From contig JACDEB010000009.1 of assembly GCA_013816595.1 (NCBI GenBank), positions 1-41,816 on the forward strand: a stretch of DNA of 41,816 nt, written 5' to 3'. The notes under the pieces were generated by a model, which did no database searches, had not been told where the DNA came from, and saw only the letters and a program-made list of their open reading frames with translations. Positions 10,405-11,927 of this stretch are shown here, piece after piece. Within the stretch, counting starts at the first letter, position 1. The number at the start of each line of letters is the position of its first letter. The translations under genes were made by a program, and so were the position numbers. Source of the stretch: Sphingomonas sp. (GTDB lineage: Bacteria > Pseudomonadota > Alphaproteobacteria > Sphingomonadales > Sphingomonadaceae).

Positions 10405-11322
10405 TTAGCTATCCTTGCTTTCGCCGGCCGAACCGGAGTCGTCGGACTTGGCCGCATCAGCGGCACCGTCCGCTCCAGCGTCCGTGGCATTGGCTTCGGC
10501 GTCAGCGGCTGCCGCAGCAGCTTCAGCGCCGGCTTCCTGCTCGGCGGCAATGGCGGCGACTTCTTCATCGCTCGGCAATGCCGGAATTTCATGAACCGCG
10601 GCGTCATCCACGAGGCCCGCGGGCGCTTCCTCCGCGACCTTGGCCTTAGGATCGAACAGACCCGCCGGATATGGCACATCGTCGTGGCGCGGCAGCTTGA
10701 TCGCGTCCTCGACGGTCAGCCAGGAACCCTTGGGACCGGGGACCGAACCCTTGACGAACAGCAGACCGCGCGCCGCATCGGTGCGGACGATTTCGAGGTT
10801 CTGCTGAGTACGATTGCGCGCGCCCATGTGGCCGGCCATCTTTTTGTTCTTGAACACCTTGCCCGGATCCTGGCGCTGGCCGGTCGAGCCGTGCGAGCGG
10901 TGCGAGACCGAGACGCCGTGGGTTGCGCGGAGGCCCTTGAAGCCCCAGCGCTTCATCGCTCCGGCAAAGCCCTTGCCCTGGGTCACGCCCGACACGTCGA
11001 CCATCTGGCCGGCGACGAAGTGATCCGCGCTGATGATCGCGCCGACATCGAGGAGTGCATCTTCGGCGACACGGAATTCGACGACTTTCGCCTTGGGTTT
11101 GACTTCGGCCTTGGCGAAGGCACCGCGCTGCGGCTTGTTGACGTTTTTGGCCTTGGCCTTGCCCGCTCCAAGCGCAACGGCGGCATAACCGTCCCTGTCC
11201 ATTTCACGACGGCCGACGACCTGCAGCTCGTCTAGCAGCAGAACGGTTACGGGCACATGCCGTCCGTCCGCCTGGAACAAGCGGGTCATTCCGACCTTTT
11301 TCGCGATCACGCCGGTGCGCAT
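10405..11322 (-). CDS. rplC: 50S ribosomal protein L3 with acidic Ala-rich C-terminal extension
   Basis: [28 protein letters not shown] ... [24 protein letters not shown]; start refined to 11322. Confidence 0.97.
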
Positions 11323-11496
11323 GACCAAACTCCTCAACAGAGGCCAATGGCGAAATGCCACCGGCTTGCAGCCCAAATTATGTGCGTGCCCCGCCTGGGC
11401 TAGTGCTCCCGGAAACCGGGAACGGCGGGGACGCTGCCCGGAGCTAATCTCCGGCGGTATCACCCAGTCCCCAGCCGGAGCCGGGGGCTAACTCGC
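11323..11496 (-). promoter_or_regulatory. structured rpsJ-rplC intergenic region (candidate cis-regulatory RNA)
   Basis: Hairpins: tcccggaaaccggga (11407-11421) nested in gcgtgccccgcc/ggcggggacgc (11384-11395/11424-11434); ccggagctaatctccgg (11438-11454); tggcgaaatgcca (11348-11360). Confidence 0.5.
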
Positions 11497-11808
11497 TTAA
11501 GCGAGCTTGATTTCCACATCGACACCCGCGGCCAGATCGAGCTTCATCAAAGCATCGACCGTCTGCGGGGTGGGCTGAACGATATCGAGCAGCCGCTTGT
11601 AAGTCCGGACCTCGAACTGTTCGCGCGACTTCTTGTCGACGTGCGGCGAACGGTTGACGGTGAACTTCTCGATGCGCGTCGGCAAAGGGATTGGTCCGCG
11701 AATAAGAGCACCCGTTCGACGAGCCGTATCGGCAATGTCGCCGGTAGCCTGGTCGAGCACTCGATGATCGAACGCCTTCAGGCGAATCCGGATGTTCTGC
11801 GTTTCCAT
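11497..11808 (-). CDS. rpsJ: 30S ribosomal protein S10
   Basis: [34 protein letters not shown]. Confidence 0.98.
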
Positions 11809-11886
11809 GTCCCTACCGATGCGAAAGAGCCAACGAACCGTAGCGCAAGGCCACGATCCGCCTAATAAACCAGTGTCAAAAGCGAA

Positions 11887-11914
11887 CCGCGCGACCCTTC
11901 ACAGAATCGCGCGG
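11887..11914 (-). terminator. hairpin between tuf and rpsJ (possible partial terminator/processing site)
   Basis: ccgcgcga-(12 nt)-tcgcgcgg, 8-bp perfect stem; no clear U-tract. Confidence 0.35.
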
Positions 11915-11927
11915 CTGCCGCCCTATA

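Follow-up and report, generated by a model that had tools for sequence, protein, structure and literature searches.

The window, i.e. the whole analyzed stretch of 41,816 nucleotides of Sphingomonas DNA, carries on its minus strand the genes rpsJ and rplC, which encode ribosomal proteins S10 and L3, respectively, and are separated by a gap of 174 nt. The original prediction, made from the letters alone, had described several hairpins in this gap; the gap indeed measures exactly 174 nt, and every stem described is present. The folding energy of the gap amounts to -97.2 kcal/mol versus -80.7 kcal/mol (sd 4.35) for dinucleotide shuffles (z = -3.8), and none of 200 shuffles folded as well. The original prediction had missed a pseudoknot formed by AGCCCA and UGGGCU, the invariant sequence GAUACC and the invariant sequence GCCUCUG, which adjoins the ribosome-binding site of rplC. 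Moreover, its hairpin TGGC-ATTTC-GCCA represents the top of a longer stem (P4, 11365-11343). A covariance model of the element matches the window at 11322-11466 with 106.8 bits and E = 1.7e-29, whereby the E-values of these models rest on short calibrations and are rough. The features of the locus are as follows:

11497-11808, minus strand: rpsJ (S10), the gene 5' of the leader (NCBIfam NF001861, E 1.2e-49)
11323-11496, minus strand: rpsJ-rplC leader, comprising the whole intergenic gap and bounded by both genes
11469-11486, minus strand: upstream hairpin CCCCGGC-TCCG-GCTGGGG, seen in the fold; differs among relatives and lies outside the conserved core
11455-11461, minus strand: invariant GAUACCG, without change in 51 genus rows; GATACC(G/T) is nearly invariant family-wide
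11438-11454, minus strand: hairpin H1, CCGGAG-ATTAG-CTCCGG, with compensatory change in 8/9 modeled pairs
11424-11434, minus strand: 5' strand of stem P2, GCGTCCCCGCC, which is stem 1 of the pseudoknot (pair 80-180 of A3: CG 48, UA 42, AU 2)
11405-11423, minus strand: hairpin P3, GTTCCCGG-TTT-CCGGGAGC, located within P2, with covariation in 5/5 modeled pairs
11396-11401, minus strand: pseudoknot strand AGCCCA, pairing with UGGGCU
11384-11395, minus strand: 3' strand of stem P2, GGCGGGGcACGC, with a bulged C (same pair of A3 as for the 5' strand)
11370-11375, minus strand: pseudoknot strand UGGGCU, pairing with AGCCCA
11343-11365, minus strand: hairpin P4, GCCGGTGGC-ATTTC-GCCATTGGC, with 5' flank CA(A/C/U); 7/9 pairs covary
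11338-11344, minus strand: invariant GCCUCUG, exact in 217/222 unique family gaps and one base off in 5
11330-11342, minus strand: predicted hairpin P5, based on folding of the window segment and on in-silico replacement, in which CUCU would pair with GGAG in the ribosome-binding site of rplC
10405-11322, minus strand: rplC (L3), the first gene 3' of the leader, with its ATG at 11322 (NCBIfam TIGR03625, E 2e-80)

From 5' to 3', the leader is thus composed of GAUACCG, H1, P2 enclosing P3 and AGCCC(A), an A/U-rich linker, (U)GGGCU, CAN, P4, GCCUCUG, the ribosome-binding site and the AUG. The consensus of P2 is GCGUCCCC(C)GNC paired with GNCGGGG-C-(G)ACGC. Some relatives carry additional structures. 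In six leaders (L014, L048, L058, L137, L144, L146) an extra hairpin is inserted between the 3' strand of the pseudoknot and P4. Others, including L107, L108, L110, L115 and L131, possess an extra H-type pseudoknot upstream of the core at the 5' side (GGUCC-[CUGGU]-GGACC-UUAAAC-ACCAG), which is absent from the window. Its loop and downstream strands seem by eye to co-vary in most of 18 sequences, e.g. CUGGU/ACCAG, CGGCC/GGCCG and CCUGC/GCAGG. As to the gene that follows the leader, L3 of the window extends for ~100 residues (205-305; 10405-10710, minus strand) past the conserved L3 domain, and this alanine-rich, acidic extension differs in length between relatives.

Compensatory base changes in stems and pseudoknot

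The element contains 31-33 nested pairs, which display strong compensatory change. Among 26 members of the genus, aligned with MAFFT and not fitted to any structure, 92.2% of the cells can pair as compared to 81.6% in shuffled controls, and both sides have changed in 21 pairs. For 95 members of the family the values are even higher (94.6% of cells paired; 599 compensatory cells versus 203 in shuffles; covariation score 0.456 versus 0.151 when shuffled and at most 0.084 when slid), but this alignment was built on the first model and is by construction biased towards nested helices. The H-type pseudoknot is absent from that model and its result is therefore free of the alignment bias. Here, 98.3% of the cells are paired, AU, GC and GU pairs replace each other, and 29 compensatory cells were counted versus 8.9 in shuffles. 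When 5,604 pairs of variable columns were ranked by an APC-corrected G statistic, the top 13 places were all taken by modeled pairs, and the outer pair of the pseudoknot ranked 21. Covariation was also seen between position 12, the G or U following GAUACC, and column 66, suggesting a further closing pair. Hence, covariation in homologous gaps, proposed along with the original prediction as a way to check it, supports the nested pairs and the pseudoknot alike. A proposed distant partner of GAUACCG, namely CGGUA at the start of rpsJ, found no support, as the rpsJ variants CGTTA, CGTCA, CGATA and CGACA retain GAUACCG.

The 3' end of the leader is tied to the start of rplC. While the leaders range from 37 to 385 nt in length, the distance between GCCUCUG and the AUG is 13-18 nt in 212 of the 222 unique leaders. 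GGAG in the Shine-Dalgarno sequence of rplC is complementary to CUCU, and the window segment folds with this pairing stacked on P4. Since both strands of P5 are invariant, covariation cannot bear on this helix. In folding calculations, the mean unpaired probability of the rplC Shine-Dalgarno sequence was 0.39 and rose to 0.62 after in-silico replacement of CUCUG; for the rpsJ site in these genomes it was 0.48. These predictions lend modest support to the view that the rplC Shine-Dalgarno sequence may be partly occluded and freed by replacing CUCUG.

Distribution and minimal forms of the leader

The leader is restricted to one family, the Sphingomonadaceae. From 71 genomes of the same genus rplC was obtained in 60 cases, and all 60 loci with both genes readable, including the window, share the ordered motifs, with gaps of 169-336 nt. 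Throughout the order, the first covariance model detected the element in 278 of 401 genomes, with rare exceptions once per genome, and the matches listed were all full-length and all in the family of the window. Twenty family genomes were missed by this model. A broader model recovered 11 of them at a rough E < 1e-5; of the remaining nine, seven possess a shorter leader and two are unreadable, one locus lying at a contig end and the other genome yielding no rpsJ. No readable gap of the family (222 unique) lacks the final hairpin, GCCUCUG or the ribosome-binding site. In 21 genomes from other families of the order the rpsJ-rplC gap measures only 2-21 nt, and in 28 genomes from other families of the class it measures 4-75 nt and the motif is absent. 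A class-wide search returned family members only, plus one weak match outside the family (E 0.005, rough) with neither rpsJ nor rplC nearby. An independent pattern scan of named genomes placed the element between rpsJ and rplC as well, with matches in Novosphingobium, Sphingopyxis, Erythrobacter, Altererythrobacter, Croceicoccus, Qipengyuania, Sphingosinicella and others. Among the first 80 pattern matches in the GTDB genome collection, 73 fit the model, all of them in sphingomonad or unnamed MAG records. The other seven (actinobacteria, a Latescibacterota, a deltaproteobacterium MAG) were discarded, having neither gene near and no convincing model match. The element was always located between rpsJ and rplC in readable family loci, and with one copy per genome the possibility of a lineage-specific repeat insertion, considered in the original prediction, is ruled out.

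The shorter leaders are informative about the origin of the element. L190, L192, L193, L195 and L197 have gaps of 37-97 nt that comprise P4, GCCUCUG and the ribosome-binding site only, with P4 being degenerate in L195. L189 and L191 carry two tandem P4-GCCUCUG modules (CAAGC-hairpin-GCCUCUG) and no pseudoknot domain. P4 is thus the sole structured part retained in the basal genera. A tree built from S10 plus the N-terminal portion of L3 shows a monophyletic family (support 100) with L195 as the first branch; the remaining minimal and tandem forms cluster (89), and all pseudoknot-bearing leaders fall into one clade (96). In our reading, the operator at the start of rplC came first, and the pseudoknot was gained later on one branch. 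Secondary loss in the basal lineages would be a less simple alternative.

A second conserved block was observed in the window at 11809-11834 (minus strand), within the tuf-rpsJ gap (11809-11927) and adjoining the start of rpsJ (GGCTCTTTCGCATCGGTAGGGAC). An exact copy of CTCTTTCnCATCGG occurs in 160 of 209 unique family upstream regions, and most others differ from it slightly, while it is missing from the genera with minimal and tandem leaders and from all outgroups checked. Several relatives carry a terminator-like hairpin with a T-run directly 5' of it. The block is possibly a separate regulatory site of rpsJ.

Possible mode of action and relation to known leaders

No terminator-like site was detected on the transcript strand inside the rpsJ-rplC gap, and a sigma-70 consensus scan, whose consensus may not fit this lineage, revealed no internal promoter. 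The position of GCCUCUG, its predicted pairing with the Shine-Dalgarno sequence and the lack of a terminator-like site make repression of rplC translation by a protein encoded downstream the best reading. We therefore consider it likely that the element is an autogenous mid-operon ribosomal-protein leader, i.e. a cis-acting RNA at the translation start of rplC that occludes its ribosome-binding site. According to this model, a large-subunit protein encoded downstream, most likely L4 and next L3, would bind the P4/CUCUG module when present in excess of free 23S rRNA. The neighboring H-type pseudoknot would brace this module in most genera. Binding would stabilize pairing of CUCU with the rplC Shine-Dalgarno sequence and thereby block initiation at rplC; through translational coupling the output of the genes after rplC would decrease, while the preceding str genes and rpsJ would be less affected. 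L4 is favored as the putative ligand: in other systems it is the one established for this gene set, and the gene next to a leader is of little help in identifying the ligand (PMC7247131).

It is possible, but doubtful, that such a leader responds to L3, the product of the first downstream gene, and not to L4. The most conserved module adjoins the rplC start at fixed distance and is the only part present in the basal genera, and L3 joins the 50S subunit early, being listed among the proteins essential for the first step of assembly (PMC10931766). However, the points in favor of L4 speak against it. Mimicry of rRNA, a trait of some leaders only, was not found, which counts against either ligand: windows of 18 profile columns compared with E. 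coli 23S rRNA did not score above shuffles (78% of the shuffles were as good or better; family-wise 0.785), in a comparison addressing sequence and not 3D structure. Apparent rRNA matches of GAUACCG at ~2458, of CCUCUG in sphingomonad 23S rRNA and of CAUCACAUCCUGGG were treated as chance, the sphingomonad 23S rRNA being compared without domain I since the first 4 kb of the rRNA locus read N. A more far-reaching version, which we hold to be unlikely, combines L3, which is not listed as ligand of any bacterial leader in the literature cited here, with the idea that the emergence of a complex leader can still be followed within the family, from a single hairpin at the rplC start in basal genera via tandem copies in two to a pseudoknot on one branch and a further 5' pseudoknot in some genera.

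Readings that dispense with a ribosomal protein appear weaker. The mid-operon position, the very stable GC-rich pseudoknot and the lack of a promoter-like site in the gap would also fit an mRNA processing or stability element, in which an RNase cut in the gap splits the str/rpsJ part from the part starting with rplC and the pseudoknot shields the new 5' end; its comparative trace would look much like that of a leader. Yet conservation is deepest at the translation start (GCCUCUG and Shine-Dalgarno sequence) rather than at a candidate cleavage site, and the pseudoknot is missing in the basal forms, making this explanation improbable. A transcription attenuator or riboswitch-like element sensing a small molecule or ribosome traffic from rpsJ is very improbable: although the large pseudoknotted domain, the A/U-rich loop and the invariant GAUACC resemble ligand-binding RNAs, the transcript strand of the gap has no terminator-like site, the element occurs before rplC only, and in its simplest form it consists of just one hairpin at the start codon. 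The compact and stable fold might finally belong to a conserved small RNA that is encoded in the gap and acts in trans, but the fixed distance to the rplC AUG, the inclusion of the rplC Shine-Dalgarno sequence and the absence of separate copies and of a promoter-like site in the gap leave this hardly any probability.

A probable ribosomal-protein leader at rplC invites comparison with known systems. L4 represses the S10 operon (PMC2704228), and the E. coli S10 leader bound by uL4 is likewise a structured RNA of the same operon controlling rplC-rplD and the following genes; autogenous control is likely here as well. In contrast to the sphingomonad leader between rpsJ and rplC, it is located upstream of rpsJ, acts by attenuation and translation, and has a different fold. 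The model of the new RNA, used in an unfiltered search of the E. coli gspB-rpsJ-rplC region, gave at best 6.4 bits on the wrong strand. In Rfam 15, no family matched the window or 8 relatives above the gathering threshold (best sub-threshold scores rydB, 16.1 bits, and SAM_alpha, 12.5 bits; at chance level), and a tRNA search of the window had no match. What holds of the original interpretation is a conserved, structured RNA that acts in cis and is linked to the start of rplC; its control by L3 or L4 is plausible. The identity as a relocated S10-operon leader is not supported: neither the E. coli leader nor any Rfam family matches, and the basal genera have the element in its simplest form, with a lone hairpin where rplC begins, which points to an independent origin.

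In its position the site resembles the operators of uS8 and uS7, which belong to an established kind of mid-operon operator and likewise sit where an internal cistron begins. Repression of the spc operon by uS8 takes place at the third cistron (PMC10931766), and in the str operon the site of S7 action is found between the genes for S12 and S7 (PMC2704228). The sphingomonad site likewise overlaps an internal ribosome-binding site, but operon, proteins and RNA structure differ and a large pseudoknot domain is added. The Archaeoglobi L4 leader precedes rplC-rplD-rplW-rplB and its ligand was inferred to be L4, but it is archaeal, and the structural comparison was limited to Rfam, which gave no match (Eckert and Weinberg 2020, PMC7247131). 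That study reports 20 leaders, including candidates for L2 and L17 from the same class of bacteria; these lie before rplB and rplQ, however, and none is listed between rpsJ and rplC (PMC7247131). The rpsJ motif RLC-47-1 is a predicted leader in the S10 operon as well, but of Peptostreptococcaceae and in the 5' UTR of rpsJ (PMC11109978). An rplC leader is not mentioned in the main texts of papers on Zymomonas 5' UTRs and of large RNA-discovery screens (26 and 50 genomes), and their supplements might hold an unnamed listing. The leader thus appears to be undescribed, and is best read as a new ribosomal-protein leader, absent from Rfam 15 and of a kind known elsewhere, with putative binding of a protein, the functional trait that defines this kind.

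The leader covers a whole, heavily sequenced family, including Sphingomonas, Novosphingobium, Sphingopyxis and Erythrobacter. Its mid-operon site would uncouple L3, L4, L23 and L2 from the str genes and rpsJ. With living intermediates leading from one hairpin to a multi-pseudoknot leader, the growth of such regulators becomes testable, as does the question whether L3 can be a ligand.
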